From Motilibacter deserti (GTDB taxonomy: Bacteria > Actinomycetota > Actinomycetes > Motilibacterales > Motilibacteraceae), in the NCBI RefSeq assembly GCF_011250635.1, contig NZ_JAANNP010000002.1, forward strand, positions 132,478-196,477: a DNA stretch of 64,000 nucleotides, written 5' to 3'. This document shows, in pieces, positions 16,120-54,011 of this stretch. Position 1 is the first letter of the stretch. Every line of letters starts with the position of its first letter. The translations under genes were made by a program, and so were the position numbers. Below the pieces are notes generated by a model, which was not told the DNA's origin, ran no database searches, and worked only from the letters and a program-made list of their open reading frames with translations.

Positions 16120-16193
16120 CGCGGGGTGGAGCAGCTCGGTAGCTCGCTGGGCTCATAACCCAGAGGTCGCAGGTTCAAATCCTGCCCCCGCTA
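16120..16193 (+). tRNA. Initiator tRNA-fMet (CAT), copy 1
   Basis: 74 bases through the discriminator A; CCA is not encoded. The acceptor stem starts with an unpaired C1 (C1.T72), the anticodon loop is CTCATAA with anticodon CAT, and the anticodon stem has the three G:C pairs (GGG/CCC) that mark initiator tRNA. The T arm is GCAGG-TTCAAAT-CCTGC. An identical copy lies 241 bases downstream. Confidence 0.97.
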
Positions 16194-16199
16194 CAAGAT

Positions 16200-16434: not shown

Positions 16435-16489
16435 CGCGGGGTGGAGCAGCTCGGTAGCTCGCTGGGCTCATAACCCAGAGGTCGCAGGT

Positions 16490-16508
<19 letters not shown>
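16435..16508 (+). tRNA. Initiator tRNA-fMet (CAT), copy 2
   Basis: Identical over all 74 bases to copy 1, including C1.T72 and the GGG/CCC anticodon stem. A TATGCT -10 box sits at 16418-16423. The last 19 bases overlap, on the opposite strand, the 3' end of the thiE/tenI reading frame, which stops at 16490. Confidence 0.97.
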
Positions 16509-18246
<1,738 letters not shown>

Positions 18247-18250
<4 letters not shown>

Positions 18251-19407
18251 GGTGCCGTGACCTCCCGTTGCGCGTCGATCGACTGGAACCTCTGGGGCGA
18301 GAACCGCTGCAGCAGCGGTGATGCCTGGCCCGTCGCCAGGAGCTCGGCGACGAGGTCGGCGGTGACCGGTGCCAGCAGCACGCCGTTGCGGTGGTGGCCG
18401 GTGGCGAGGACCAGCCCCGGCAGCGCCGACGCCCCGAGTAGCGGGGCGTTGTCGGGCGTGCCTGGTCGCCAGCGGGCCAGCGTCTCGACGAGCTCGAGCT
18501 CGGAGACGCCGGGCACGATCTCGGCGGCGTCGTGGAGCAGGTCGTGCACGGCGCCGGCCGTCACTCGCCCGTCGAAGCCCAGCTCGTCCGTCGTCGCCCC
18601 CACGACCAGGCGCCCGTCCGCCTGCGGCACCAGGTAGGCCGCTCTCCCGTGGACCATCCCGCGCACGGTGCCGGACAGCAGCGGCTCACCGCGCAGCCGC
18701 AGGATCTGCCCCTTCACCGGGCGGACCGGCACCGTGCCGGGCGGCAGGCCCGGCAGCCGCCCGCTCCAGGCGCCGAGGGCGAGCACTACGGCGGGCGCGC
18801 GCAGGTCGCCGTCACACAGGCGTACGCCCATGGCCCGGCCGTCCTCCACGACGAGGCCTTCGACCCGGGACGGCAGCAGCTCGACCCCTGCGCTCCGGCA
18901 CGCCGTGAGCAGCGCCGCGGACAGGGCGCGCGGGTCCACGGAATGGTCGTCGCGGACGAGCACACCGCCGCGGAGCCGCGGGGTGAGCGCGGGCTCGCGT
19001 CGTCGGCAGGCGCTCGCGGTCAGGCGGTCCGCGGCGAGCCCGAGCTCGCGGTGGAAGTCGTGCAGGGCGAACAGCGCCCGCAGGTCGTCCTCGTCGAACC
19101 CGACGAGGAGCGTGCCCGCCGTCCGCAGCCCCACCGACAGCCCGCTGGCCCGCTCGACCTCCGCGACGAACGACGGGTAGCGAGCAAGGGATGCGTGCGC
19201 GAGCTCGAGCAGCGACTCCTCGCCGTACGCGGCCTCTGCGACCGGCGCGAGCATCCCCGCGGCGGCGTGGGACGCGCCGCTGCCGGGGGCGTCGTCGACG
19301 ACCGTGACCCGCAGCCCGTGCTGCGCGGCGCGCCAGGCGACCGCCAGCCCCACGAGCCCGCCGCCGGCGACGACGACGTCGGCCGGGGCACGAGCAGGAA
19401 TGCTCAC
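18247..19407 (-). CDS. thiO: Glycine oxidase ThiO
   Basis: 386 aa FAD-dependent amine oxidase that makes iminoacetate (dehydroglycine) for ThiG from glycine and O2. FAD-binding GxGxxG: DVVVAGGGLVGLAVAWRAAQHG (~10-31). Further motifs: HAAAGMLAPVAEA, VPVRPVKGQILRL, YLVPQADGRLVVGATTDELGFD and the C-terminal LVLATGHHRNGVLLAPVTADLVAELL. The GTG start is only a few bases after the TPP aptamer, and its ribosome-binding site GGGAG is part of the aptamer core. Use of ThiO rather than ThiH fits an aerobic life style. Confidence 0.96.
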
Positions 19408-19408
19408 G

Positions 19409-19496
19409 CGATGCTCCCTACGCCGGCATTACCCGGACAGGTTCCAGCGGTCGGCAGCGCTTCGTAGCCGCCCTCTCAGCCCGGTCGTCCCGAGCT
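19409..19496 (-). promoter_or_regulatory. TPP (THI-box) riboswitch controlling thiOSGE
   Basis: On the minus strand the conserved THI elements appear in order: GGGCTGAGAGGGCGGC (pyrimidine-binding helix), CCGCTGGAACCTGTCCGGGTAATGCCGGCGTAGGGA (pyrophosphate helix), enclosed by a GCTC/GAGC P1 stem. Within this 3' core, GGGAG lies six bases before the thiO GTG, so TPP binding should directly hide the ribosome-binding site. No room remains for a separate expression platform. Confidence 0.95.
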
Positions 19497-19741
19497 CCCG
19501 CACAGCGGCGCGGAGTCTACGGCCTCGTGCTCCCCGGGCGCGCCGGCGCGGTCGCCGGGGGACGTCGGGGTCCGGGGCTCGCCGGGCCGGGACCTTCGTC
19601 CCACGGCCCCGTCGGGACCTTCGCCCGAGCCCTGTCGGGATCACCCGGGCGGCCCTCTGAACTGCCTGCTGCGCAGCCGTTTCTCCCGCTGACGACGGCA
19701 GCGCACGGACGCCTGCCGCGAAGCGCAGGAGGCGTTGCACA

Positions 19742-22700
19742 ATGACTGCTCGCACGGCACGGGGCGTGGCCTGGGCCGGGACGGCCACGGTGGTGGCCCT
19801 GCTGGCCGCCGCCATGACGCCCGTCGCCCCGCCGGCCGAGGCCGCGACGGCCGTCGGCGCGTCGGCGTGGGGCCAGAACGCGTACGCCCAGCTCGGCGAC
19901 GGCACCACCACGGCGCGCAAGACGCCGGTCACCGCGCGGCTCGGCGGCCGGGCCGCGGGCCTCGCCGCCGGCGACCGGCACAGCCTCGCCGTGGCCGAGG
20001 ACGGGACCGTCCTCGCCTGGGGCAGCAACGCGTACGGGCAGCTCGGCGACGGGACCGTCACCACCCGCAAGACCCCGGTCCGGGTGGGGACGCTGACCGA
20101 CGTGGTGGCGGTCGCCGCCGGCGCGTACGCCAGTGTCGCGCTGCGCGCAGACGGCACCGTCTGGGCGTGGGGGCGCAACACCGCCGGCCAGCTCGGCGAC
20201 GGCACGCTGACCAACCGCAGGACGCCGGTCAGGGTGCCGGGCCTCACGGACGTGCGGGCCATCGCGGCGGGAGACACCTTCACGCTCGCGGTCAAGACCG
20301 ACGGCACGGTCTGGGCCTGGGGGGCGAACGCCTCCGGCCAGCTGGGCGACGGCACGGTCACGACCCGCAAGAGCCCGGTGCGCGTGACCGGGATCTCGAA
20401 CGTCCTCTCCGTGGCGGCGGGCATCGCCTCCTCGGTGGCGCTGCGCGCCGACGGCACGGTGTGGACGTGGGGGGCCAACGCGTACGGCCAGCTCGGCGAC
20501 GGCACGCTGACCACCCGCAAGACGCCCGTGCAGGCGGTCGGCGTCACCGGCGCCGTGGCGGTCGACGCCGGCGACCAGGACACGCTGGTGCTGCGCAGCG
20601 ACGGGACCGTCCGGGCCTGGGGCCGCAACCAGAGCGGCCAGCTCGGCGACGGGACGACGACGACCCGCAGGACCGCGGTGTCCGTGACCGGCCTGGCCGG
20701 CGTGACCGGCATCGCGGCCGGTGACACGCACACCCTCGCGGTGCTCGCGGACGGCACGGTCCGCGCGTGGGGCGCGAACGGCAACGGCCAGCTCGGCGAC
20801 GGCACGGCGACCGCGCGCAAGACGCCGGTCGTGGTGAAGGGGCTCAGCGAGGCCGGGGTGATCGCGGCCGGCACGGCGCACACCCTCGCCGCCGCGCGCA
20901 ACGAGGCCTCCGGGCCGCAGCCGTCGGGCTGGTGGCCGGCCGAGGGCGACGGGGACGACGCCGCCGGGGACCTGACGGCGTCGCTCGGCGCCGGCGTCGG
21001 CTTCACGACGGGTGCGGTCGCGTGCGCCTTCGACGTCCCCGCGGACAGCGCGGTCGAGATCGCCGACGACCCCGCGGTCGAGCCCCGCGCCGCCTTCTCG
21101 TTCTCCGCGTGGGTCTCCCCGCAGGCCGTGACCGGCCGCCGCGTCGTCGCCGCCAAGTCGGAGGACGGCCGGCAGGCCTGGGCGCTCGCGGTCGTGGACG
21201 GCAAGCTCTCCGTCGACGTCAGCGCGGACGGCTCCGACGTCCGGACCGTCACCTCGACCTCCGCCGTCGTCGCCGCGAAGCGCTGGCAGCAGGTGGCCGT
21301 GACGTTCGACGGCTCTGTGACCGAGCCCGAGCGCGTGAAGCTGTACGTCGGCGGCCTGCCCGTCGCGGCCGCCGCCACCGCAGGCCCGCACTCCTCGGTC
21401 GCCGACGTGGCCGGGCCGCTGCGCCTCGGCGGCCCCGGCTGGTCCGGAGGGATCGACGAGGCCCGCGTCTTCCCCGGCCCGCTGACGGCCGCCCAGGTCG
21501 CCGACGTGCAGGCCGGTGACGTGGCGAGCGCCGGCGCGCCGTGCGACCTCGTGGCGCCGGTGACCGCGGCCGCCCTCTCCCCGAAGCCCAACACCGCCGG
21601 CTGGAACAACGCCCCGGTGGCCGTCACGCTGACCGCGACCGACAACACCGGCGGCACCGGCGTCGGCTCGCTGACCTACTCCGCGTCGGGGGCGCAGGAG
21701 GTCGAGGAGGACTCGGCCGACGGCGACACCGCGACCCTCACGGTCACCGAGGAGGGCCTCACGACGGTCTCCGCCTCCGCCTCCGACACCGCCGGCAACA
21801 CCGAGGAGGCGCGTGCCTTCGCCGTGCGGGTCGACCGCTCCGCGCCGACGGCGACCGTCTCCCGCGCCCCCGCGGCCAACGCCCAGGGCTGGAACAACGG
21901 CCCCGTCACGGTCGCCTGGGAGTGCGCCGACGCCGTCTCCGGGGTCGCGTCCTGCCCCGCGCCGCGCACCTTCGACACCGACGGCGCCGGCCAGTACGCC
22001 CTGGGCAGCGTCGTCGACGCGGCCGGCAACACCGCCGCCGTCCGCAGCGGTGACGTGAGCATCGACACGACGGCGCCGACCCTCACGGCGGGCCTGGCCG
22101 TCGCGCCTCACGCGTCCGGCTGGTACCGCGAAGACGTGCGCGTCAGCTGGTCCGCCACCGACGCGCTCTCCGGCATCGATGGGGCCGCACCGGCCGACGG
22201 CGTCATCGACGGCGAGGGCCGCGGGCTCACGACGAGCGCGCGGGTCTCCGACCGGGCCGGCAACGTCACCGTGGCCACGTCGCCCGCCGTCTCCATCGAC
22301 CGTACGGCCCCCGTCACGACGGCGTCCGCGCCCGAGGGCTGGGTACGCGGCGCGGCCGTGAAGCTCTCGGCGGCCGACAACCTCTCCGGTGTCGCGGCCA
22401 CCTGGTGGCAGCTCGACGAGGGGCAGCCGCAGCAGGGTGACCACGTCGACATCGACGAGGACGGCATCCATGATCTCCGCTTCTGGAGTGTCGACGCTGC
22501 GGGCAACGCCGAGGAGCCGGCGACCGTGCGGGTCCACGTGGACTCCACCGCGCCCGTCGTCACCCACCGGCTCGACCCCGAGCCGAACGCCCTCGGGTGG
22601 CTCCGGGACGACGTCACCGTGACCTTCGACTGCGCCGACGGCACCTCCGGCGTCGCCGAGTGCACCGCCCCGGTGCGCGTCACCGCAGAGGGAGCGGGCC

Positions 22701-24964
22701 GGACGGTGACGGGCTCCGCCCGTGACGCGGCCGGCAACACCGCGACCGACGTCGCCGTCGTGTCGATCGACCGGACGGCTCCCGCCGTGACGCCGTGGGT
22801 CGACGCGGTCGCCGCCGCCTCGGGCTGGTTCAACACCCCGGTGACCGTGTCCTTCGACTGCGCCGACGCGCTCTCGGGCGTCGTCGAGTGCGCCGGGCCG
22901 GTCACGCTCGGGGAGGGCCGCGGGCAGTCCGCTACGGGCACCGCCACCGACGCGGCGGGCAACGAGGGGAGCGGCACCCGCTCGGGCGTCGACGTCGACC
23001 TCACGGCCCCGACGCTGGCGGGCTCCGCCGGTGAGCGGCCCACGAGCGGCTGGTGGCGCGACGACGTCGTCGTCCGCTGGGAGTGCGACGACGCGCTCTC
23101 CGGGATCGACGGCGGCTGCCCGGCGCCTGCCTCTCTCACCGGCGAGGGCGAGCTCTCGACCGTCGCGAGCGTGGCCGACCGGGCGGGCAACACGACCGTG
23201 GCGCGCGTGGACGGCGTACGCATCGACCGCACCGCCCCTGTCACGACGGCGGACGTGGCCGCGGCGCTGGCGACGGGCTGGCACTCCGGCCCGGTCGAGG
23301 TGGCGCTGGCCGCCACGGACGCGCTGTCCGGCGTCTCGGTGACCCGCTACTCGGTCGACGGGGTGACGGCGTCCTACGACGGGGCCTTCACGGTCAGGGA
23401 GCCGGGCGTGCACGAGATCCGCTTCTGGAGCGAGGACGTCGCGGGCAACGTCGAGCCCGCGGGCTCGCTCACCGTCCGCATCGACGGCATCGCGCCGGCC
23501 GTCGCGGCGTCGTTCACACCCGCCCCGAACGCCGAGGGGTGGAACAACAGCCCCGTCGACGTGACGTTCACCTGCGGCGACGACGAGTCCGGCGTCGCCG
23601 AGTGCCCCGCGCCCGTCTTCGTCGGTGAGGACGGGGCCGGGCGCGCCGTGGCCGGCACCGCCGTGGACGCCGCGGGCAACGCGTCCACCGCGACCGCCGT
23701 CGTCAACCTCGACACCAGGGCGCCCGAGGTGTCGGGTGCCGCGACGACCGAGCCCGCAGCCACGGGCTGGCACCGCGAGCCGGTGACGGTCGCCTTCCGC
23801 TGCGCGGACGAGCTGTCCGGCGTCGCCGACTGCCCCGCCGCCGTCACGGTGGACCGGGAGGGCGAGGGGGTCGTCGTGAGCGGGACCGCCACGGACCGGG
23901 CCGGCAACGTGTCCGAGCCGGCCGAGGTCTCCGTGGACGTCGACCTGACGGCGCCGTCCGTCGCCCTGGCCGGCGGCCCGTCCGGCACGGTGGAGTTCGG
24001 GCAGGTCCCGGACGCCCCGACCTGCGAGGCCCGGGACGCCACGAGCGGTGTGGCCGGCTGCGTGGTGGACGGCTACGGCATCGAGGTCGGCGAGCACGTC
24101 GTGACCGCGACCGCGACCGACGCTGCGGGGTGGACGAGCACGGCCACCCGCGCCTACACGGTGGTCAAGGCCCGCCAGGCCATCCGCTTCGACGCCCTCG
24201 GCGACAAGCGCGCCGGTGACCCGGACGTCAACGTCGTGGCCGTCGCCTCGTCGGGGCTGCCGGTCGAGCTCCGCGCAAGCGGCGCGTGCACCGTGTTCGC
24301 GACGACGGTCCACCTCGTCGGGGCGGGCCAGTGCTCGATCACGGCCTCGCAGCCCGGCAACGGCAGCTACGAGCCGGCGGCAGACGTCACCCGCACCTTC
24401 ACGGTCGCGACCACCGTCCTCGACGGCTTCGACCGAGCCAACGGCTGGGTCGGGTCGGACTGGGCCGGCACTGTGGGCACGGCGTTCTACCGGGTCTCCG
24501 GGCGCGCGCTCGACGTCCGGGCCGGCGGCCCGCTCGTCTACCGGGCCCCGTTCGGCACGACGCAGGAAGCGCAGATCACCCTCACGGACGTCGACCCGCG
24601 CAGCCATGCGGTCGGGGTGCTGCTCAAGGCGCAGACGGGCAGCATCCCGAGCGCCGGGGCGATCTCGGTGACGTACGACGCGAAGGAGAAGGCGGTCGAG
24701 GTCTCGACCTTGCGGGTGGGGACGCTATCCTGGAAGGTCTACACCGGCAAGGCGGTCACGTTCGCCGACGGCGACGTGCTGCGCGCCCGGGTGACGGCCG
24801 CTGGCGACGTGCAGGTCTACCGCAACGCGACGCTCGTCACGACCGTCACGCTGAGCGCGGCCGACAAGGCCTTCTTCAACCCCAAGGGCGGCCAGATCGG
24901 GATCTGGGCCCACCCCTCGACGAGCGGCCTGGTCGACGACTTCGGCGGCGGCACGGTCGGCTGA
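19742..24964 (+). CDS. Secreted RCC1-propeller / LamG / Ig-like repeat protein
   Basis: 1740 aa, ATG with AGGAGG ten bases upstream. A signal peptide (AWAGTATVVALLAAAMTPVAPPAEAA, ~10-35) is followed by seven RCC1 repeats (~38-390; each ...WGxNxxGQLGDGTxTxRKTPV...), enough for a complete seven-bladed propeller. A LamG/concanavalin-like domain follows (~395-595, GWWPAEGD...FSFSAWVSP...). Then come ten ~85-residue Ig-like units with a GW-N/xxPVxV...CxDxxSGVxxC...DxAGN core plus one degenerate unit (~600-1478), a further beta domain (~1480-1555) and a C-terminal beta-jelly-roll-like domain (~1560-1740). No catalytic residues, sortase signal or membrane anchor is visible. It is probably an extracellular adhesive or glycan-binding protein; that is inference from domains. 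It is a single-gene unit ending at a strong terminator. Confidence 0.85.
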   Translation: MTARTARGVAWAGTATVVALLAAAMTPVAPPAEAATAVGASAWGQNAYAQLGDGTTTARKTPVTARLGGRAAGLAAGDRHSLAVAEDGTVLAWGSNAYGQLGDGTVTTRKTPVRVGTLTDVVAVAAGAYASVALRADGTVWAWGRNTAGQLGDGTLTNRRTPVRVPGLTDVRAIAAGDTFTLAVKTDGTVWAWGANASGQLGDGTVTTRKSPVRVTGISNVLSVAAGIASSVALRADGTVWTWGANAYGQLGDGTLTTRKTPVQAVGVTGAVAVDAGDQDTLVLRSDGTVRAWGRNQSGQLGDGTTTTRRTAVSVTGLAGVTGIAAGDTHTLAVLADGTVRAWGANGNGQLGDGTATARKTPVVVKGLSEAGVIAAGTAHTLAAARNEASGPQPSGWWPAEGDGDDAAGDLTASLGAGVGFTTGAVACAFDVPADSAVEIADDPAVEPRAAFSFSAWVSPQAVTGRRVVAAKSEDGRQAWALAVVDGKLSVDVSADGSDVRTVTSTSAVVAAKRWQQVAVTFDGSVTEPERVKLYVGGLPVAAAATAGPHSSVADVAGPLRLGGPGWSGGIDEARVFPGPLTAAQVADVQAGDVASAGAPCDLVAPVTAAALSPKPNTAGWNNAPVAVTLTATDNTGGTGVGSLTYSASGAQEVEEDSADGDTATLTVTEEGLTTVSASASDTAGNTEEARAFAVRVDRSAPTATVSRAPAANAQGWNNGPVTVAWECADAVSGVASCPAPRTFDTDGAGQYALGSVVDAAGNTAAVRSGDVSIDTTAPTLTAGLAVAPHASGWYREDVRVSWSATDALSGIDGAAPADGVIDGEGRGLTTSARVSDRAGNVTVATSPAVSIDRTAPVTTASAPEGWVRGAAVKLSAADNLSGVAATWWQLDEGQPQQGDHVDIDEDGIHDLRFWSVDAAGNAEEPATVRVHVDSTAPVVTHRLDPEPNALGWLRDDVTVTFDCADGTSGVAECTAPVRVTAEGAGRTVTGSARDAAGNTATDVAVVSIDRTAPAVTPWVDAVAAASGWFNTPVTVSFDCADALSGVVECAGPVTLGEGRGQSATGTATDAAGNEGSGTRSGVDVDLTAPTLAGSAGERPTSGWWRDDVVVRWECDDALSGIDGGCPAPASLTGEGELSTVASVADRAGNTTVARVDGVRIDRTAPVTTADVAAALATGWHSGPVEVALAATDALSGVSVTRYSVDGVTASYDGAFTVREPGVHEIRFWSEDVAGNVEPAGSLTVRIDGIAPAVAASFTPAPNAEGWNNSPVDVTFTCGDDESGVAECPAPVFVGEDGAGRAVAGTAVDAAGNASTATAVVNLDTRAPEVSGAATTEPAATGWHREPVTVAFRCADELSGVADCPAAVTVDREGEGVVVSGTATDRAGNVSEPAEVSVDVDLTAPSVALAGGPSGTVEFGQVPDAPTCEARDATSGVAGCVVDGYGIEVGEHVVTATATDAAGWTSTATRAYTVVKARQAIRFDALGDKRAGDPDVNVVAVASSGLPVELRASGACTVFATTVHLVGAGQCSITASQPGNGSYEPAADVTRTFTVATTVLDGFDRANGWVGSDWAGTVGTAFYRVSGRALDVRAGGPLVYRAPFGTTQEAQITLTDVDPRSHAVGVLLKAQTGSIPSAGAISVTYDAKEKAVEVSTLRVGTLSWKVYTGKAVTFADGDVLRARVTAAGDVQVYRNATLVTTVTLSAADKAFFNPKGGQIGIWAHPSTSGLVDDFGGGTVG
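19862..20880 (+). repeat. Seven tandem ~150-bp RCC1-coding repeats
   Basis: The DNA encoding the RCC1 propeller repeats about every 150 bases, with highly similar cores such as CAGCTCGGCGACGG recurring near 19890, 20040, 20190, 20340, 20490, 20640 and 20790. Such near-identical units allow recombination that would change blade number. Confidence 0.85.
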
Positions 24965-24977
24965 GACGGGCCACGAC

Positions 24978-25019
24978 ACGACAGCGGCGCCGGAGGGCAT
25001 CCTCCGGCGCCGCTGTCGT
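24978..25019. terminator. Strong bidirectional terminator
   Basis: A perfect 19-bp stem (24978-24996 with 25001-25019) closes a GCAT loop, 14 bases after the RCC1-protein stop and 18 bases before the stop of the convergent GH43 gene. It can serve both transcripts. Confidence 0.9.
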
Positions 25020-25036
25020 TGAACAACGCGGGAACG

Positions 25037-27406
25037 CTACTTCAGCGGATACGTGTGCACGTAGTCGAACGTGGCCAGGGCGCCGGACGCGTTCATGGAC
25101 ACGAGGCCGATCTTGAGGTCACCTCTCTTCGGCATCGTCCACACGCCACCCCACGTCCACGACGAGCCGTCGGTGCTCGTCGCCATGCGCACCTCGTTCT
25201 CGTTGTGGACCGCGTCGTAGTGGTAGGCCAGCCGCAGCCACGTCGTCACCGCGGGCGGGCCGCCGAACATCGGGCCGTTGAACACCGCGGTCGCGGGGAC
25301 CGTCGTCGGCCGCTCGGCCTCCTTGCCGAACTCGGTCTGGTGCAGCACCGTGTTGGCCAGGCCCGTCAGCGGCAGCACCGAGTGGGCGAGCTTGAACCAC
25401 CGGTCGTCGTTCTCGTAGAGCAGGATGCCGGCCTGCTGGTTGCCGCGCGTCCCGTTGAAGGCCAGCTTCGCCTCCACGACGTAGTCGCCCGCAGGCGTGG
25501 GCCGCGTCAGCACCGAGGCGGTGTTGTTGGTCGTGTAGATCTCCGCGTTCTGCGTCGGCCAGGTGAGCGCGCCGTCGGCCTTGACCGCGTTGGCCGCGCC
25601 GGCGCCGCGGACCCACGTCCACGCCGGGTCGCCTGCCTCCGGCCGGCCGGTGCCGTCGAAGTCGTCGGAGTACGCCGGCAGCAACGGCCCGAGCTGCGGG
25701 TCGTCGACGCGCTCGGTCACCGGGACGTACAGGTCGGCGGCGCTGAGGTTGTCGGCCTGCACGGTGGTGCCGAGCGAGGCGACACCGACGCGTCCGCGCA
25801 CGCCTGCGTCCGGCACGGTCGCGGTGACGGTCCCCAGCGGGTCGCCCAGCCGGTCCTCGGACACCTGCGCGGTGAGGATGTGGCCGCGTACCTCGACCGC
25901 GACGTTGTGCCAGTCGTCGTAGTCGAAGCCGGCGGGGAGCGGCGCGCTGGTCTCCGTGGACTTCTTGCCGTCGCTCACGCTCACCAGGAGGGCCTTGCGG
26001 CCGCGGTCGAGCCACGCGGTGACCCGGTCGTTGCCGCGCTCGGAGACGACGAGCCCGACCGCGCCCGCGCTGCCGCCACCGGTGATGCGCAGGTCGGCCT
26101 CGACGCGGGAGTCGCCGTTCACGCGGGTGTCCGACGTGAGCAGTGCCGGCAGCCCCTTCGTGGGCGAGCCTGTCTGCGTCAGCACGCCGCCCGCGTCCGG
26201 GACCTGCGTGACGGACCACTTCTCGCCCTTGCCGCCGCGCAGCCGCCAGCCGGCAAGGGACGCGGTCTCGAAGCCGGACTGCACCACGCCGGTGGTGACG
26301 GGGGCGGCCTGCGGTGTGTCCGAGGGGCCGGCTCCCGCGCGCAGCACGGGCCAGCCGCCGATCCAGTCGAGGCGGTCGATGAGGAGCGGGCGCTGCGACA
26401 GCGTCTTGACCCCGTCGACCGTGTTGAGCGGCGGGAAGTCCGGAGTGGCCGAGGGGATGCCGTGGTAGACCAGCCAGTCCTGGCCGGCGAGGTCGGTCGT
26501 GATGGCGTTGTGGCCCGGACCGACGAACGTGTTGCCGTTGGCGGCCGCGACGATGCCGGCGTGGCTGCGCAGGTCCATGAGGTCCTGCCCGTCGGGCGCG
26601 AGGAACGGCCCGCGCGGGCTCTTGGACCGCCCGACCTTGACCGTGTAGCCCGAGAAAGCGCCGTCGCAGCAGCCGCCGTCGGAGTAGAACAGGTAGTACC
26701 AGCCGCCGCGGTTGACGACGAAGCCGCCCTCGGCGCGCCGCCCGCGCGCGATCTGGGTGACGGGACCCCTCAAGGCCGTGGCGGTGGCGTTCATAGCCGA
26801 CACGCAGATCGTGTCGTAGCTGCCCCAGTAGAGGTAGTGCGTGCCGTCGGAGTCGGTGAACAGCGCCTGGTCGATGGCGTTGCTCGGGCAGCCGCTGTTG
26901 GGGGGCACGAGCTGGCCGCGGTCGGTCCACGGCCCGGTGGGGGAGTCGCTCGTCGCCAGCCCGATGCCGCTCGTGGACAGCGAGTAGGTCAGGTAGTAGC
27001 GGCCGTCCAGATAGCGGATGTCCGGTGCCCAGGCACGCGTGTTGGAGCGCCACCACGACGGGCGCGCCTCCTGGGCGAACACGTCACCGGCGTACGTCCA
27101 GGTGACCATGTCCGTCGAGCGCAGGATCGGCAGGAAGTGCTCGCGGGTCTCGCCCTTGCTGGAGAAGATCGGGTTCGTGGTGCCGTAGGCGTACCAGGCG
27201 CCGTCCTTCGCGCGGACCATCGTGGGGTCGGGGAGCGTGTCCACCGTCCCGGCGGTCACGGGGTTCGTGTACGTCGCGGGCGGGGCCTGCGGTGCCGCCC
27301 TCCCCGCGGGGGCTGCGGTCGCGGCCCCCGGTGCGGTCACGAGGGAGGCGGACAGGGCGAGGCCGCCGAGCAGCGCCATGGCTCTCGGCTTGGCTGGGGT
27401 TCTCAC
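25037..27406 (-). CDS. Secreted glycoside hydrolase family 43 protein (arabinanase/xylosidase-like)
   Basis: 789 aa. The start is the GTG at 27406, overlapping the sulfatase stop as GTGA; it yields a signal peptide (MALLGGLALSASLVTAPGAATAAPA). The five-bladed GH43 domain (~40-360) shows the catalytic triad: base Asp in DTLPDPTMVRA, pKa-modulating Asp in RAWAPDIRYLDG and acid Glu in GRRAEGGFVV. GGWYYLFYSDGGCC and FVGPGHNAI resemble endo-1,5-alpha-L-arabinanase-like members. Two further beta-sandwich regions follow (~400-560 and ~580-789, the last like the GH43 C-terminal DUF1349-type domain: WTWVRG...FNGTRGNQQAGILLYENDDRWFKL). It likely acts outside the cell on arabinan- or xylan-like chains. 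It is the last gene of the ROK-ABC-sulfatase operon. Confidence 0.9.
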   Translation of the reverse strand: MRTPAKPRAMALLGGLALSASLVTAPGAATAAPAGRAAPQAPPATYTNPVTAGTVDTLPDPTMVRAKDGAWYAYGTTNPIFSSKGETREHFLPILRSTDMVTWTYAGDVFAQEARPSWWRSNTRAWAPDIRYLDGRYYLTYSLSTSGIGLATSDSPTGPWTDRGQLVPPNSGCPSNAIDQALFTDSDGTHYLYWGSYDTICVSAMNATATALRGPVTQIARGRRAEGGFVVNRGGWYYLFYSDGGCCDGAFSGYTVKVGRSKSPRGPFLAPDGQDLMDLRSHAGIVAAANGNTFVGPGHNAITTDLAGQDWLVYHGIPSATPDFPPLNTVDGVKTLSQRPLLIDRLDWIGGWPVLRAGAGPSDTPQAAPVTTGVVQSGFETASLAGWRLRGGKGEKWSVTQVPDAGGVLTQTGSPTKGLPALLTSDTRVNGDSRVEADLRITGGGSAGAVGLVVSERGNDRVTAWLDRGRKALLVSVSDGKKSTETSAPLPAGFDYDDWHNVAVEVRGHILTAQVSEDRLGDPLGTVTATVPDAGVRGRVGVASLGTTVQADNLSAADLYVPVTERVDDPQLGPLLPAYSDDFDGTGRPEAGDPAWTWVRGAGAANAVKADGALTWPTQNAEIYTTNNTASVLTRPTPAGDYVVEAKLAFNGTRGNQQAGILLYENDDRWFKLAHSVLPLTGLANTVLHQTEFGKEAERPTTVPATAVFNGPMFGGPPAVTTWLRLAYHYDAVHNENEVRMATSTDGSSWTWGGVWTMPKRGDLKIGLVSMNASGALATFDYVHTYPLK

Positions 27407-28905
27407 GTCGTCGGGCTCCGATAGGTCGATTCGTCGAGGCCGCTCAGGGTCGGGTCGTACGCGACCTCGCCCACGGCGTACATCGACGTCATCCAGTGGT
27501 AGAAGTTGTCGCCGCGCTCGCGCAGGAGCGTGTAGAGCCGCTGCAGCATCGCGTCTCGGACCGGCCGCATCTCGGGGTGCCCGTAGACGTTGACCAGCTC
27601 GTCGGGGTCGAGCTCCAGGTCGTAGAGCTCGTTCACGGAGTCCGGGTTGACCACCAGCTTGTAGCGGTCGTTGCGGAGCATCCGCTGGGGATAGGGGAAG
27701 TGGTGGCCGTGGAACTCGCACACGACGTCCTCCGCCCACTCGACGTCCGCCCCGCTAGTGAGCGGAAGCAGGCTTCGCGAGTCGACGGCCGGAGCCGGGT
27801 CGATGCCGGCGAGCTCGAGGATGGTGGCGGTGCAGTCGAGCAGGCTGACGAACTCGTCGCGCACAACCCCGGCCGGCTGGCCGGGGACCCGGAGGATCCC
27901 GGGAGTGCGGTAGATGTCCTCGTACATCGCCGGGCCCTTGTCGTGCAAGCGGTGCGACCCGGTGAACTCCCCGTGGTCGCAGGTGAAGAACACGGCGGTC
28001 TCGTCGGTGAGCCCCAGCCGGTCCATCGCGTCGAGGACGCGGCCGACCTCGCGGTCGATGAGCGCGACGTAGCCCTGGTAGACGGCGATGAGCTTGCGCG
28101 AGGCCTCGATCGGCATGGTGTCGAAGGTCCAGTGGGCGCTGTAGTTGCGCTGCACCGGGGGCTTGCCCTCGAACGTCTCGATCACCGAGCGCGGCATCTC
28201 GACCGACTCGGGGTCGACGAGGTCGAAGTACTCGTCGGGGAGGATGTAGGGCAGGTGCGGCCCGAAGAAGCTCAGCTTGAGGAAGAAGGGCGTCCCGTCG
28301 GAACGGGCCTGCTCGGCGTAGCGCTCGAGGTGCTCGATCGCCCGCGTCGCCAGGTAGTGCTCGAACGTCGCCTCGACCGGCTGGTGCAGGCGGGCGGCGA
28401 GCAGGTTGCCCGGCCCACCGTTCGGTAGCGTGCCGCGCACCCGGTCGCTGATCGCGTACTCCGGGAGCCCGTTCTCCTTGAGGTAGGCCAGGTAGTCCGG
28501 CGCGTCCACCGGGTTGTGCCACCCCGGGAGGTCCGGCCCGTCGAAGCCGTAGTCGGCCGGCGCCTTCTCCGTCCCGGTGTGCCACTTGCCGATCAGGCCG
28601 ACGTTGTAGCCCTCCTCGCGCAGCGCCTGTGAGTAGGTGAACGTCCCCTCGGGGAGGTCCTCGAGATAGCCGACGTTGCGTTCGTGGTTCGCCAGCAGCT
28701 TGTGGCGGAAGGGCGCCTGCCCGGTGAGCAGGCTGGCGCGCGAGGGGGTGCAGATCGCGGTCGGTGTGTACCACCGGTCGAACCGCGTCCCCGAGCGCGC
28801 CAGCCCGTCCAGGACCGGCGTCGTCCCCTGCGGGTTCCCGTAGGCCCCGAGCGTGTCCACCCGGTGCTGGTCGGTCATGAGGAAGAGGATGTTGCGCCGG
28901 CTCAC
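27403..28905 (-). CDS. Type I sulfatase (formylglycine-dependent)
   Basis: 500 aa. Alkaline-phosphatase-fold sulfatase hydrolysing sulfate esters. Start GTG 28905 gives MSRRNILFLMTDQHRVDTLG with the metal-binding Asp of TDQHR. The FGly sequence is CTPSRASLLTG with Cys at residue 52, the Cys-type motif needing FGE or a radical-SAM maturase; neither is in the window. Other landmarks: GLIGKWHTG (Lys/His), FFGPHLPY, FFTCDHGEFTGSHRLHDKGPAMYEDIYRTP (metal-binding Asp-His) and NDRYKLVVNPDSVNELYDLELDPDE. No signal peptide, so it acts in the cytoplasm on imported substrate. It lies 5 bases after the binding-protein gene and overlaps the GH43 start. Confidence 0.94.
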   Translation of the reverse strand: MSRRNILFLMTDQHRVDTLGAYGNPQGTTPVLDGLARSGTRFDRWYTPTAICTPSRASLLTGQAPFRHKLLANHERNVGYLEDLPEGTFTYSQALREEGYNVGLIGKWHTGTEKAPADYGFDGPDLPGWHNPVDAPDYLAYLKENGLPEYAISDRVRGTLPNGGPGNLLAARLHQPVEATFEHYLATRAIEHLERYAEQARSDGTPFFLKLSFFGPHLPYILPDEYFDLVDPESVEMPRSVIETFEGKPPVQRNYSAHWTFDTMPIEASRKLIAVYQGYVALIDREVGRVLDAMDRLGLTDETAVFFTCDHGEFTGSHRLHDKGPAMYEDIYRTPGILRVPGQPAGVVRDEFVSLLDCTATILELAGIDPAPAVDSRSLLPLTSGADVEWAEDVVCEFHGHHFPYPQRMLRNDRYKLVVNPDSVNELYDLELDPDELVNVYGHPEMRPVRDAMLQRLYTLLRERGDNFYHWMTSMYAVGEVAYDPTLSGLDESTYRSPTT

Positions 28906-28910
28906 GGTGC

Positions 28911-29924
28911 TCAGCCCTGGCTCGCCGCCTGCGTGAACAGGTCGCCCTCGTAGTAGGTCTTCGGGTCCACCTGGCCCTTGAGCTTGCCGGCCCCGATGAA
29001 GAAGTCGTTGAGCCCGGTGAGCCACTTGTCGATCGTGCCGTCCTTGGTCAGCGTGTCGACCTCGGCCGCGTCCAGGATCTTGTTGTTGCCGGCGTCGGCC
29101 TCGACCTGCGCCTCGTCGATCTTCAGCATCTTCGCGGTGTCGGCGATCGTGGCGTCCAGGTTGGCGGCGCGGTAGGCCATGGCCTCGCGGAGCACCGCGA
29201 CCACCTTCTCGGTCTTCTCCCTCTCCTCGGCGACGACCTTGTTGCCGGCGACGAAGGCGGTCGGGAAGGACAGCTCGTCGGAGAAGTCGGAGTCCTTTGC
29301 GAGCTCGACGAGGTCGGGCACCTGCTGCTTGATGGTGGAGATGGCGGGATACCAGAAGCCGGCTGCGTCGATCTTCTTCGACGAGAACGCGGAGACGATC
29401 GTCGCGGCGTCCATCGGGGTGACCTTGACGTCGTCCTTCGTCAGCCCGGCCTTCTCCAGCGCCAGCGTGAGGATCATGTCGCCGGACGTCCCCTCGGGGA
29501 CGCCCACCGTCTTGCCCTTGAGGTCGGCGACGGACGTGATGCCCGGCTGCGCGATGACGCGGTCGGCGTTGCCGAGCGTGTTGATCGCGATGATCTTCGC
29601 CTGCCCGGAGGCCGGGAGCCACACGGCGCCCGGGCCGATGTAGCCGAAGTCGAGGTCGCCGGTGCCGAGCGCCTGGATCTGCAGCGGGCCGTTGGTGAAG
29701 ACCCTGGTCTCCGCCTTGAGCCCGTGCTTGGCCCAAAGGCCCTGCGAGTCGGCGACGGCGAGCAGGCTGGTGCCGTTGAAGTCGCCGATGTAGCCGAAGT
29801 CGACGGTCTCCAGCTTGCCGGAGGCGGAGCCGCCGCTGGAGCCGTCGTCCCCGCCGCAGGCGGCCAGCAGCACGCTGGCGGCCAGTGCGGCGGTCACGGC
29901 GAGGAGCTTGCGGGGGAGGAGCAT
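28911..29924 (-). CDS. ABC transporter substrate-binding lipoprotein, NitT/TauT (SsuA/TauA) type
   Basis: 337 aa. The ATG at 29924 is chosen because it follows AAGGAG and gives a lipoprotein signal peptide ending in the lipobox LLAAC (Cys ~24), followed by a Gly/Ser linker. The mature part is a periplasmic-binding fold of the sulfonate/nitrate/NMT1 type: VDFGYIGDFNGTSLLAVADSQGLWAKHGLKAET, GDLDFGYIGPGAVWLPASG, ITSVADLKGKTVGVPEGTSGDMIL and AFSSKKIDAAGFWYPA. Relatives bind small anionic compounds such as sulfonates and sulfate esters, rather than sugars. It precedes the sulfatase gene by 5 bases, so a sulfated ligand is likely. Confidence 0.92.
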   Translation of the reverse strand: MLLPRKLLAVTAALAASVLLAACGGDDGSSGGSASGKLETVDFGYIGDFNGTSLLAVADSQGLWAKHGLKAETRVFTNGPLQIQALGTGDLDFGYIGPGAVWLPASGQAKIIAINTLGNADRVIAQPGITSVADLKGKTVGVPEGTSGDMILTLALEKAGLTKDDVKVTPMDAATIVSAFSSKKIDAAGFWYPAISTIKQQVPDLVELAKDSDFSDELSFPTAFVAGNKVVAEEREKTEKVVAVLREAMAYRAANLDATIADTAKMLKIDEAQVEADAGNNKILDAAEVDTLTKDGTIDKWLTGLNDFFIGAGKLKGQVDPKTYYEGDLFTQAASQG

Positions 29925-29943
29925 GAAGTCAGGTTCTCCTTGG

Positions 29944-30750
29944 TCAGGCCGTCGGGACGGACGGCTGGGGGACGACGGCGGGGCCGCCGTCCTGGTGGTG
30001 GACCGCACGCCAGACCCGGTTGCGCAAAGCTGCGAACTCGGGGCTGAGGCGGGCCTCCTCGGGCCGGGGATAGGGCAGGTCGACGTCGATGACGTCGAAG
30101 ACGCGGCCGGGGCGGGCCGCCATGACGACGACGCGGTTGGCCAGGAAGACGGCTTCGTCGACGTCGTGGGTGATGAAGAGCACCGTGCGGCGCTCCTCGT
30201 TCCAGGTCTGCAGCAGCTGCTCCTGCAGGTTCACGCGGGTGAGCGCGTCGAGCGCGCCGAAGGGCTCGTCCATCAGCAGGATCGAGGGGTTGACCGCGTA
30301 CGCCCGCGCGATGGCGCAGCGCTGGCGCATGCCGCCGGAGAGGGTCTTGGGCAGGGCGTCGGCGAACTGCTCGAGCCCCACCAGGCGCAGGTAGTGGTCG
30401 GCGAGCTCGCGCCGTTCCCGGCGGCCGACGCCCTGCTCTCGCAGGCCGAACTCGACGTTCCTGCGCACCGTGAGCCAGGGGAAGAGCGCGTACTGCTGGA
30501 AGATGACGCCGCGGTCCGGGCCGGGGCCGGACACCTCGCGGCCGTCCACCACGGCGTGGCCGCCGGTCGGCTCCTCCAGCCCGGCGAGGATGTTCATCAG
30601 CGTCGTCTTGCCGCACCCCGACGGCCCGACGACGGTGACGAACTCGTTGTCGGCGATGTCGAGGGAGACGTCCTGCAGGGCGGCGAGCTCATGGCCGGCC
30701 AGGTCGAACGTCTTGCTGACGCTGCGGACGGAGATCTTCGGGGTGGCCAT
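29944..30750 (-). CDS. ABC transporter ATP-binding protein, NitT/TauT (SsuB/TauB) type
   Basis: 268 aa. Walker A GPSGCGKTTLMNIL (~44), Q-loop GVIFQQYALFPWLTV, signature LSGGMRQRCAIARAYAV and Walker B SILLMDEPFGALDALTR with the H-loop FITHDVDEAV are all intact. The sequence PFGALDALTRVNLQ is typical of the nitrate/sulfonate/taurine subfamily. Its ATG overlaps the permease stop (ATGA), and the binding-protein gene follows after 19 bases. Confidence 0.95.
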   Translation of the reverse strand: MATPKISVRSVSKTFDLAGHELAALQDVSLDIADNEFVTVVGPSGCGKTTLMNILAGLEEPTGGHAVVDGREVSGPGPDRGVIFQQYALFPWLTVRRNVEFGLREQGVGRRERRELADHYLRLVGLEQFADALPKTLSGGMRQRCAIARAYAVNPSILLMDEPFGALDALTRVNLQEQLLQTWNEERRTVLFITHDVDEAVFLANRVVVMAARPGRVFDVIDVDLPYPRPEEARLSPEFAALRNRVWRAVHHQDGGPAVVPQPSVPTA

Positions 30751-31574
30751 CAGCGGCGCTCCTGCCATCCGGTGACGCGGCGTTCGACCAGCAGCAGCAG
30801 CCGGTCCATCACCAGTCCGAGGACACCGATGCTGATCAGGCCGACGAAGATCGTCGGCAGGTCGTAGTAGAGCTGCGCGCTCTGCATCCGGTAGCCCAGC
30901 CCCGACTGCGCGGCGATCAGCTCGGCGGCCACGAGCGTCGCCCAGGCCGAGCCCAGTCCCACGCGCATGCCGACGAAGATGAACGGCGTCGAGGCCGGGA
31001 TGACGACACGCAGGAAGATCGAGAGGTCCCGCGCGCCGAGGACGCGCGCGGCGTCGATGAGAGTGCGGTTCACGTCGACGACGCCCTGGAACGTGGCGAT
31101 GACGCAGGCGAGGAATGCGGCGAGGAAGATGACGAAGACCTTCGGCGTCTCGTCGATGCCCATCAGCACGATGGCGAGCGGGATGATCGCGAGCGGGGGG
31201 ATGGTGCGGAAGAACTGGATCCACGGCTCGATGAGCGCGCGCGCCGTGGCGTACCACCCCATGAGGAAGCCGACGGGGACGGCGGCCGCCGTGCCGAGGG
31301 CGAAGCCGAGCACCACGCGGCGCAGGCTGGCCCTGACGTCGTCCGCGAGCGTGCCGTCCGCGACCAGCTCGCCGGCGCGGCGCGCTACGGCGGCCGGGGT
31401 CGGCAGCGTGTAGCCCAGCAGGGCGAGCGTCTCCCAGCCGGCGACGCCGAGCACGATGGAGACGAGGTTGAGCACGAGGGAGCGCCCGCGCCATCGCCGC
31501 CGCCGGCGGGCAGGCGCGGGTGTGCCTCCGGTGGTCACGGCGGGCGCGGCGCGGCGCGGGTCCGTCAGCTGCAT
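30750..31574 (-). CDS. ABC transporter permease, NitT/TauT (SsuC/TauC) type
   Basis: 274 aa, ATG behind AGGAAGAG. After a basic N-terminus (RRRRRWRGR) there are about six transmembrane helices, and the cytoplasmic EAA loop is [65 protein letters not shown] is the typical subfamily stretch. It pairs with the ATPase and lipoprotein just downstream. It begins 44 bases after the ROK regulator stop, probably on the same transcript. Confidence 0.95.
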
Positions 31575-31618
31575 TGCGTTCTCTTCCTGACGGCGGGGTG
31601 GGAGTGGTACGCGGGCGG

Positions 31619-32860
31619 TCACGAGGCGCTCGAGCGCGGCTGCGCCGGTCGGTCGTCGTAGGCCGCGACGGGGTAGTCGGCGATGAGCGGCGAGCTGTGG
31701 AAGAGGGCGGCGAGCGCGCCGAGCGCTCCGGACTCGTCGGAGAGCCAGCCGGCCCGGACGCGCGGCTCGCTCGTGGCGTGCGGGAACCGGTCGTAGCGCA
31801 CCGTCGCGGCGACCTGCTCGACGAGCACGGGCGCCACCCGGGCGATCTCGCCGCCGATAACGATCTCGTCGGGGTCGACCGCGACGGCGACCGCGCTGAC
31901 CGCCGCGCCGATCGTCTGCCCGGCCTCGCGCAGGACCCGGTCCACCACCGGGTGGGCGCGCTCCACGTGCGTGCGCAGGTCGGCCAGGGTGCGCGCGTTC
32001 ACCCCTTCCTGCCGACAGCGCGCGAGGACAGCCGGGGTCGAGGCGAGCGTCTCCACGCACCCTCGTTTGCCGCAGCGGCAGGCCTTGCCGCCCGCGGGCA
32101 CGGCCCGGACGTGGCCGAGCTCGCCGGCGAGGCCCGTCGAGCCGGTGACGAGGCGCCCGTCCACGACCAGCCCGCCGCCGACGCCGTCGGCGACCCGGAC
32201 GTAGAGCAGGTTGCGCACCTCCGCGCCGGCGCGCACGGCCTCCCCGAGCGCCGCGAGGCGGGTGTTGTTGTCGAGCACGACCGGGGTCTCGAAGCGGGAG
32301 CTGAACGCCTCCGCGACGCCCTCGGCGGTGTCTCCGAACGGCCGCCCGCTCCGCCTCGTCGGGCGCGGGGCCAGCGCGGAGGAGTAGGGGCCGGGGACGC
32401 CGACCCCGACGCCCTGCAGCGCGCGGTAGTGCACGCCGGACTCGTCGTGCAGCCGGTCCAGCAGGGTGAAAGCGGTCTGCACGCGCTCCGGCCACTCCGC
32501 CGTGGCCCGGGGGTATGCCGCAGCCCCCGCGGCGACGATCTCGTGCGAGGCGTCCGCGACCGCGACGTGGACGGTGCGGTGGCCGAAGTCGACGCCCAGG
32601 AACTGCCCGGATGACGGGTCGAGGGCGAGCCGCTCGGCCGGGCGCCCGCTGCCGGCACGGCCCTCGGCGTCCGTGCCCAGCACGATCACGGCGCCCTGGC
32701 GCAGCAGGCCGCCGGCGATCTCGGAGGTGGAGGAGCGGGAGAGCCCCAGCGTGCGCGCGATCTCGCTGCGCCGCAGCGGGCCCTGCTCGCGGAGGGCGCG
32801 CAGCAGGCGCTCCTCATGCGAGCGGCGGACCGCGTCGTACCGCGCCTGTGGAACCAGCAT
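31619..32860 (-). CDS. ROK family transcriptional regulator
   Basis: 413 aa. N-terminal winged helix-turn-helix (~14-65: [35 protein letters not shown]) fused to a sugar-kinase-like ROK domain. Visible: ATP-site strand [42 protein letters not shown] and the zinc site [29 protein letters not shown] (CxCGxxGC). ROK repressors sense sugars or sugar phosphates. It is first in the transport-sulfatase-GH43 operon, so it likely represses that operon and itself until a glycan-derived ligand binds. The -10 box is only 7 bases before the ATG, implying a leaderless mRNA. Confidence 0.93.
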
Positions 32861-32867
32861 GGTAGGG

Positions 32868-32897
32868 ATACTAGGGCTGCTTGGATTTTTCCTTCAA
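32868..32897 (-). promoter_or_regulatory. Promoter of the ROK/transport/sulfatase operon (probably leaderless)
   Basis: On the minus strand TTGAAG (32892-32897) and TAGTAT (32868-32873) are 18 bases apart. The -10 ends 7 bases before the ROK ATG, so transcription should begin at or next to the start codon. The spacer contains an A-run unusual for this genome. Confidence 0.7.
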
Positions 32898-32928
32898 CGC
32901 GCCGACAGAAAAACTTGGACGATCGTCC
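32885..32928. promoter_or_regulatory. Candidate ROK operator(s)
   Basis: Two symmetrical elements lie at the -35 region and upstream of it: TTTTTC and GAAAAA half-sites about 16 bases apart (32886-32913), and a perfect 12-base palindrome GGACGATCGTCC at 32917-32928. ROK repressors often bind AT-rich inverted repeats, so either could be the operator. The assignment is inferred from position and symmetry only. Confidence 0.45.
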
Positions 32929-33016
32929 GACGGGTCGACAGAAGGAGCCCGAGCCCAGGCAGGAGAGAAGTGTGATTCAGGCAATACGCGTCGTATGCCC
33001 GAGAAAGGCCGGAGGG

Positions 33017-33526
33017 CTACGCCCCGAGCGCGTCGTCGTCCTGCAGGGCGCGGTCGACGAACTGGGCGAGCCGGTCGCGCAGCCGCTCGACCCGGCCGGG
33101 GGAGCCGACCGGCTCGGGCTGGGTGAGCGTCAGCGGGCGCAGCCCGCGGACGTAGAGCGAGCAGGCGAGGTCGCTGCAGATGTAGGTGCCCACCGTGTTG
33201 TCGTTGCGGCCCGCCGCCCCGGCGCGCTTGGCGACCAGCAGCGAGACGTCGCCGGCCGGGTGCGCCGAGTGGCACAGGTTGCACAGGCCCGAGCCGGGGC
33301 GCAGCCCCGAGCGCCCGGTGGCGCGCAGCGCGAGGCCGACGAGCCCGTCGCGGTGCGGGGTGACGAGGTATGCCCGCTGCGGCGAGCGCGGGTCGCGCCA
33401 GCCGAGGAAGTCCAGCGGCTCCCAGTCGAGCGCGTCCAGCCCCGCGGGCAGCGTCATGCGCTTGGCCTCGCTGCGCGAGCAGTTGACGAACGACGCGCGC
33501 AGCTCGTTCTCGCTGACGGCGTCCAC
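33017..33526 (-). CDS. FBP-domain (treble-clef zinc finger) protein
   Basis: 169 aa. The start is the GTG at 33526 with an excellent GAGGAG seven bases upstream. It begins VDAVSENELRASFVNCSRSEAKRM, the start of the actinobacterial FBP domain, related to the C-terminal zinc finger of elongation-factor-binding (FusB-like) proteins. Zinc ligands are CNLCHS (CxxC, ~90) and ICSDLACSLYVRG (C..C, ~120). GWRDPRSPQRAYLV is another family motif. FusB-type proteins bind EF-G and protect translation, but the role in actinobacteria is untested. Confidence 0.82.
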   Translation of the reverse strand: MDAVSENELRASFVNCSRSEAKRMTLPAGLDALDWEPLDFLGWRDPRSPQRAYLVTPHRDGLVGLALRATGRSGLRPGSGLCNLCHSAHPAGDVSLLVAKRAGAAGRNDNTVGTYICSDLACSLYVRGLRPLTLTQPEPVGSPGRVERLRDRLAQFVDRALQDDDALGA

Positions 33527-33622
33527 GTCCCGCTCCTCGTGCCGTAGGCCCGCCCCCTGCGGACGGACAGGGAATCCTCCCACGGGCGCCGGTGCGGCCG
33601 ACGGTGCCTCTCGCCCGACAGG

Positions 33623-53587: not shown

Positions 53588-54011
53588 GGCACCCCCATGA
53601 CGACGCTTCGACAGGCAAGCCTAAGCCGCGCGGTGGCGGGAGCGCCTGCAGACCGGCCGCCCTTCCGCCCGTCGGCAGAGGTGCTGGCCGGCGCCACGAA
53701 TACAACCTGCGCTGTGCAAGAGACCCGGAACGATGGGGTTTGTCCACGTGACCACCGGTCGCCGCGCGCCGCCGCAAGCGAACGACAACGTGCTGACAAG
53801 TGGCCGGCGCCAAGGTCTGCTTCGGATGCCCACGCCTGTGGGCGCAGGGCGGGACGGGTGGCTGTCCCTCGGCCGCGGTGGTGGTGGCCCCACCACCGAA
53901 GCGCTGGGGAGCACGGTCGTCCCCCGGCCTCCGGGACGCGATCTTCGACTGCGCCCCGGCTTCGCCCGCGTCGTCGGCATCCGCGCTGCCCGCCTCGAAT
54001 GGAGACCGAAC
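53588..54011. other. 424-base gap upstream of the giant secreted protein
   Basis: Divergent control region between the SARP operon and the giant gene. A frame open from 53733 runs into the giant gene but reads as Arg/Pro/Gly noise with no initiation signal, so it is not used. A hairpin GCCCAC-GCCT-GTGGGC lies at 53828-53843, followed by an imperfect GGTGGTGG/CCACCACC fold near 53876-53898; the giant gene's leader may therefore be structured. I found no match to a known riboswitch. Confidence 0.4.

Follow-up and report, generated by a model that had tools for sequence, protein, structure and literature searches.

One gene in the 64,000-nucleotide stretch of Motilibacter deserti DNA analysed here (the window) encodes a run of RCC1 repeats followed by a run of Ig-like repeats, and it raises two questions: whether the repeats make it a fast-changing locus, as a preliminary description had proposed, and what a protein of this layout could do.

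Gene and domain architecture

The gene is one ORF (Table 1) whose GC content at the three codon positions is 0.71, 0.61 and 0.97; the antisense ORF at 19517-24607 was rejected as its shadow, the codon-position GC being mirrored there (0.96/0.62/0.71). The order of the domains is signal peptide, seven RCC1 blades, LamG, eleven Ig-like units and C-terminal region, and the most hydrophobic 19-residue stretches of the protein start at aa 8-12. Judged from its sequence, the product appears to be a large secreted protein of a high-GC actinobacterium whose anatomy is real, and no enzymatic role was seen for the 1740 aa.

Table 1. Features of the gene and its surroundings (positions in the window)
Feature	Residues	Position	Strand	Basis or remark
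Whole gene	1740 aa plus stop	19742..24964	+	single ORF
AGGAGG, Shine-Dalgarno-like		19727..19732	+	9 nt upstream of ATG
Signal peptide, Sec type	1-35	19742..19846	+	sequence; cleavage site judged by eye
Seven-bladed RCC1 propeller	41-386	19862..20899	+	Pfam, period, model, fold matches
LamG (concanavalin-like) domain	435-587	21044..21502	+	Pfam PF13385
Ten Ig-like (OmpL47-type/Big_13) stalk units	602-1400	21545..23941	+	D-x-x-AP units, NCBIfam; four-unit superrepeat
Eleventh, terminal HYR-like unit	1401-1476	23942..24169	+	D-x-x-AP; similar ends in L071, L072
Weak Ig-like (Big_3_5) piece, Cys1516/Cys1531	1477-1556	24170..24409	+	E=0.0067, under Pfam cut-off
C-terminal domain without Pfam family	1557-1740	24410..24961	+	no significant Pfam match
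TPP riboswitch of divergent thiO/thiG genes		19398..19511	-	Rfam RF00059, 60.3 bits
Perfect 19-bp hairpin between the gene and the convergent GH43 gene		24978..25019		probable shared terminator, no T run
GH43 protein, beta-xylosidase-type C-terminal domain		25037-27739	-	convergent neighbour

The propeller head

Exactly seven RCC1 repeats and a LamG domain after them had been described, and both observations held. The blade Trp residues lie at aa 43, 93, 143, 193, 243, 293 and 343, a spacing of exactly 50, Pfam RCC1 (PF00415) matches seven stretches of the protein (E=3.9e-75), and the RCC1-like domain PF25390 covers aa 42-383 with 286.7 bits against a cut-off of 150. LamG_3 (PF13385) was found in the whole protein at E=2.6e-19 (70.3 bits, cut-off 27.6) and at E=3.2e-21 when the piece was searched alone, with Cys428 and Cys601 on either side of it. 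Because of these E-values, the RCC1 and LamG matches did not arise by chance.

The AlphaFold head model, built on an alignment of 29 propellers (A1), shows a closed propeller whose 28 strands span model residues 5-350, and the first strand is set apart from the remaining ones, as expected of a closing strand. Block pLDDT was 81 for model residues 1-10 and 91-98 for the rest up to residue 350; the LamG part, which no relative row covered, was of low confidence. Among PDB folds, Foldseek retrieved UVR8, HERC2, HERC1, RPGR and RCC1, then BLIP-II at ranks 46, 48 and 50, and VIA-align of the model gave Z 55.5 for HERC2 (350 residues, 1.4 A), about 51 for UVR8 and about 49 for RCC1. The head is thus placed in the RCC1/BLIPII superfamily, with a predicted closed fold. 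It shares the RCC1-repeat class and the closed propeller with UVR8, the HERC2 RLD and RCC1 (Z 49-55), whereas these are eukaryotic and have other partners. The propellers of UVR8, HERC2, RCC1 and BLIP-II are binding domains, and that of BLIP-II is seven-bladed.

BLIP-II, a secreted beta-lactamase inhibitor of Streptomyces, resembles the present protein in being secreted, in coming from a soil actinobacterium and in its RCC1/BLIPII-type propeller. It gave Z 34.1, and none of the structurally aligned folds had a higher identity than its 36% over 263 residues; the available text of PMC9218822 describes it as a binder that soil bacteria secrete. All of this would suit a propeller that inhibits one particular extracellular enzyme, of its own cell or of a competitor, with the stalk only holding it in place. 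However, BLIP-II was absent among the sequence-search matches of the head, its chain of 268-273 residues has neither stalk nor LamG, its blades measure about 39 residues against 50 here, and no inhibitor gene neighbourhood was seen, so that we consider an inhibitor of this kind unlikely. In the literature examined, as far as the accessible portions of the sources go, BLIP-II was the only bacterial secreted-type RCC1 propeller with a named bound ligand.

Blade number and divergence

Blades were counted with an HMM made from six blades of this protein and run over the fetched loci, of which 33 places represent relatives: L033, L034, L009, L010 and L042-L070, the latter being the 29 class loci that scored best against the seven-blade query. 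An ORF with seven blade matches was present in 28 of the 33, a figure to be read with a choice of loci that favours seven-blade proteins; the others had 11 (L043, where the locus end cuts the ORF), 15 (L034, and an ORF in L055) or, in the divergent ORFs of L009 and L010, four each. The seven matches of L059 and L068 are unevenly spaced, and these two were dropped from the blade comparison, which took 26 relatives with exactly seven matches. In that comparison no shift of blade register between this head and the relatives was clearly best, and in the blade tree the nearest neighbour lay within the same protein for 44 of 189 blades and had the equal blade number for 115 of 189.

In this bacterial class, RCC1 propellers of the secreted type are widely distributed: counting the present genome, 62 of the 393 sampled had a propeller match at E<=1e-40 in a survey that scored three candidates per genome only. 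PF00415 is present in two of the five family genomes, the sister species G001 having no match, and the gene described here is the only one in its own genome with PF00415 matches over the Pfam cut-off. The same genome also holds a 714-aa divergent, partial RCC1-like ORF with a C-terminal DUF4082 domain (L010, G000:C231:34446-35171). At L033 (G004:C2:297714-299057), two in-frame TGA codons lie inside the propeller match, which may mean that the gene is broken or that its frame breaks past the propeller.

The preliminary description had the RCC1 repeats nearly identical in DNA, which did not bear out. The 21 blade pairs share 55-73% of their DNA and 44-72% of their protein sequence, and the longest exact word common to blades is 29 bp. 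At shared residues the blades use the same codon in 359 of 555 cases (0.65, against 0.59 expected from the codon usage of the gene) and the Ig units in 939 of 1517 (0.62 against 0.60), values from non-independent pairs that are given without significance; the blade excess is small, yet above zero. Blades and stalk units alike are diverged, with synonymous sites near saturation, and the blades are old rather than fresh copies.

Pereira and Lupas (PMC9218822), in the text available, define a highly repetitive propeller by a median blade identity above 60%; such propellers belong to the RCC1/BLIPII group too and are mostly bacterial, whereas the median here is 0.56 (maximum 0.72) and falls under that threshold. 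Since blades and units are diverged, their synonymous sites nearly saturated and seven blades steady, we consider it extremely unlikely that near-identical blades recombine and change the length of head or stalk between strains. Tandem repeats are indeed present, blade amplification is documented in other RCC1/BLIPII propellers in the same available text, and some relatives do have similar blades, with medians of 0.73 (L048), 0.70 (L051) and 0.76 (L070). For the blades, however, a constant number goes with high divergence between species and genera, and this corrects the idea of a fast-changing repeat locus. Recent blade amplification is more likely in L048, L051 and L070 than in this gene.

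Stalk, C-terminal region and anchoring

Eleven units start with D-x-x-AP, the first at aa 602, and seven of them carry two Cys residues 10-12 residues apart. The NCBIfam OmpL47-type domain NF047446 matches at E=1.8e-51 (172.5 bits, cut-off 40), while the equivalog for OmpL47 itself (NF047441) scores 116 against 250 and so stays under its cut-off; a literature search on OmpL47 with the domain name found no paper. Among units 1-10 the mean identity is 0.487 at an offset of four, compared with 0.371-0.413 for every other offset between one and seven; when units 2-10 were shuffled 20,000 times, only 0.135% of the orders came up to the value observed. The stalk grew by four units at a time.

The same offset-four peak occurs in two other stalk proteins, L071 of Nocardioides ungokensis (0.49) and L072 of Segeticoccus rhizosphaerae (0.462), whose stalks are 45-47% identical to this one in the best segment. 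Both have 26 unit matches and no RCC1 match, and their C-termini are presumably PxKF-like. In L071 (9434-16610) the matches are split over two overlapping frames, 20 in the main frame and 6 in the other, owing to a genuine frameshift or to a fault in the assembly. Because both proteins also end with a similar unit (by eye, with HYR matches), we read the eleventh unit as a terminal one; the ten regular units of the preliminary description stood, and the decayed state that it ascribed to the eleventh did not. Further, because these stalks have no RCC1 head, the stalk would be a cassette that occurs with different heads.

The head has other company as well: by Pfam scan, four of nine RCC1 ORFs of other genomes contain PASTA, PKD, fn3 or MBG domains, and no Ig units were found in the other RCC1 ORFs of the fetched loci, within their short flanks. 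Head and stalk therefore behave as separable modules, the stalk having other ends and the head standing beside PKD, fn3, MBG or PASTA. A literature search combining RCC1 repeat, surface protein and Ig-like found no paper, and annotated databases may still hold this architecture.

The C-terminal region had no useful match in Pfam or, by sequence, in the PDB, and the last 203 aa, used as a query against 296 genomes at E<=1e-8, matched only themselves. A single-sequence model of aa 1468-1740 reached a pLDDT of 39, too poor for use. No anchor had been seen before, and the motifs tested agree: the protein contains no strict LPXTG, no lipobox and no C-terminal hydrophobic stretch or membrane helix. 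The genome carries four sortase matches.

These features set the protein beside the RCC1 surface proteins of bee-gut bifidobacteria, which, according to the available parts of PMC4449606 and PMC3447821, are actinobacterial and extracellular, and whose RCC1 domains average seven repeats (PMC4449606, same limit). Those proteins have two to four RCC1 domains each, Flg_new repeats, an LPxTG anchor and tandem gene clusters in the accessible portion of PMC4449606. Here, in contrast, we found one propeller, LamG, an Ig stalk and a single RCC1 gene over the cut-off; the Listeria-Bacteroides repeat (Flg_new) is absent from the Pfam matches up to E=1, and the anchor of the bifidobacterial type (C-terminal LPXTG, hydrophobic stretch, charged tail) is lacking in its first two elements. 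The excerpts of PMC3447821 state that no distinct function has yet been assigned to such surface proteins. With these proteins and the secreted BLIP-II already known, in so far as the sources were available, the present protein probably belongs to a type for which other actinobacteria already provide examples.

Variable face, charge and function of the head

In the strands and loops of the model, the loops after WG (blade positions 10-23) and after AG (42-44) lie on the same side of the propeller, a placement of alternate loops that is general for any four-stranded meander. Across 182 blades of the 26 relatives the most variable positions are 13, 44, 43, 10, 12, 25, 23 and 31. The two same-side loops, 17 of the 50 positions, hold six of these eight, and position 25 adjoins them at a strand start. 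We take this variable face as the putative ligand face, on a comparison made post hoc among relatives that are non-independent.

On this evidence we favour, as probable, a secreted modular binding protein with a propeller head, LamG and an Ig stalk. The propeller would serve as a rigid ligand-binding head, one face of which, formed by the long loop after WG and the short loop after AG, would carry the changeable residues and a seven-fold Lys/Arg position. LamG beside the head may add a second, glycan-type contact, and the ten-unit stalk with its terminal unit would keep the head away from the base. Because no covalent anchor was found, the protein would be released, or held non-covalently through the C-terminal region. 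The signal peptide, the closed 28-strand model with its fold matches, the face-biased variability, the equivalent heads beside other extracellular-type modules in relatives and the bifidobacterial surface proteins, as far as their sources were available, are all consistent with such a binder. Against it, the same loops may vary neutrally in any propeller family, and the protein may simply be shed. The earlier reading of a binding head on a long stalk is thereby upheld in its anatomy, by the closed propeller model, LamG and the Ig units, and binding is made plausible by the face-biased variability.

Position 25 of the blade is Lys or Arg in all seven blades (aa 60, 110, 160, 210, 260, 310 and 360), against 15 of 182 blades in the relatives and at most three of seven within one protein. 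Searched as an exact DNA pattern, GQLGDGTxTxRK occurred four times here and a single time in each of G045 and G353, which makes 3 of 393 genomes. Arg at position 24 was considered as a further member of a ring and rejected, since its presence goes with the choice of Asp or Asn at position 18 (among the 182 relative blades D-R 80, D-S 24, N-R 5 and N-S 39, with other pairs making up the remainder; Fisher p 9e-14, without correction for relatedness) and the two residues probably form a structural pair. For that reason only position 25 was kept for a binding ring.

The pI is 10.2 for the head, 4.3 for LamG and 4.1 for the stalk. The head has a net charge of +7, and the net charge is negative in 23 of the 26 relative propellers (exceptions: L045 +6, L052 +2, L057 +2); with L045 at +6, this head is not alone in being basic. 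The protein is best read as a secreted binder, its head bearing a cationic face and its stalk being acidic; that the head binds a polyanion is a guess. A more specific version, in which the seven-fold Lys/Arg gives the head a symmetric ring of positive charge by which it captures acidic polymers such as a pectic polysaccharide, teichoic acid or extracellular DNA and tethers them for a genome-specific polysaccharide-use segment, is a long shot. If true, it would be a multivalent electrostatic binding mode undescribed for RCC1 propellers in the literature examined, within the portions of it that were available. One basic residue position, recurring in each of the seven blades on the face that differs among relatives, is in any case a simple testable feature.

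The charges bear on another possibility, a self-assembling matrix protein whose heads pair face to face, or head to stalk, and link cells or fibres. UVR8, the dimers of which pair face to face, is among the nearest folds, and a basic head with an acidic stalk would allow head-to-stalk contacts between molecules; equal positive charge on both heads, however, opposes face-to-face pairing, and we think a matrix role improbable beside that of a secreted binder.

Genomic context

The riboswitch heads thiO (FAD-dependent oxidoreductase) and thiG and marks the left edge of a non-syntenic segment. DNA synteny ends at 19519 with G001 (83% DNA identity) and at 19500 with G004 and G003, so that three related genomes lose synteny within about 20 bases of the riboswitch edge. 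Past the break, G001 has an ORF that we read as GGDEF/EAL from motifs. The 9 kb to the right (24970-34000) gave 40 scattered matches in G001, none of them seen to be colinear and none beside G001 thiO. As synteny stops and the right-hand matches are scattered, the gene sits in a segment absent from the corresponding place in the sister species.

Beyond the convergent GH43 gene lie an NMT1-type solute-binding gene, an ABC ATPase and a ROK regulator, with no syntenic counterpart in the sister species. This neighbourhood raises the idea of a scaffold for an adjacent arabinan-degrading locus, in which the GH43 enzyme has plant polysaccharide kept close to it by head and LamG, and the GH43 gene, the ABC transporter, the regulator and the genome-specific segment are all in keeping with it. 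However, the two genes converge on an intervening hairpin and so are not one operon, the NMT1-type solute-binding protein is no obvious sugar binder, and the co-location may be chance; we regard such a scaffold as quite unlikely.

The PHROGs database names RCC1 proteins of phages, and no phage context was seen at this locus. Elsewhere in the window, two identical tRNA-Met(CAT) genes lie 315 bp apart on the forward strand (16120-16194 and 16435-16509), within a repeat of 97 bp at 95% identity, and 53733-63587 on the same strand holds an ORF of 3284 aa that contains twelve RTX calcium-binding stretches and, at its C-terminus, a Calx-beta domain.
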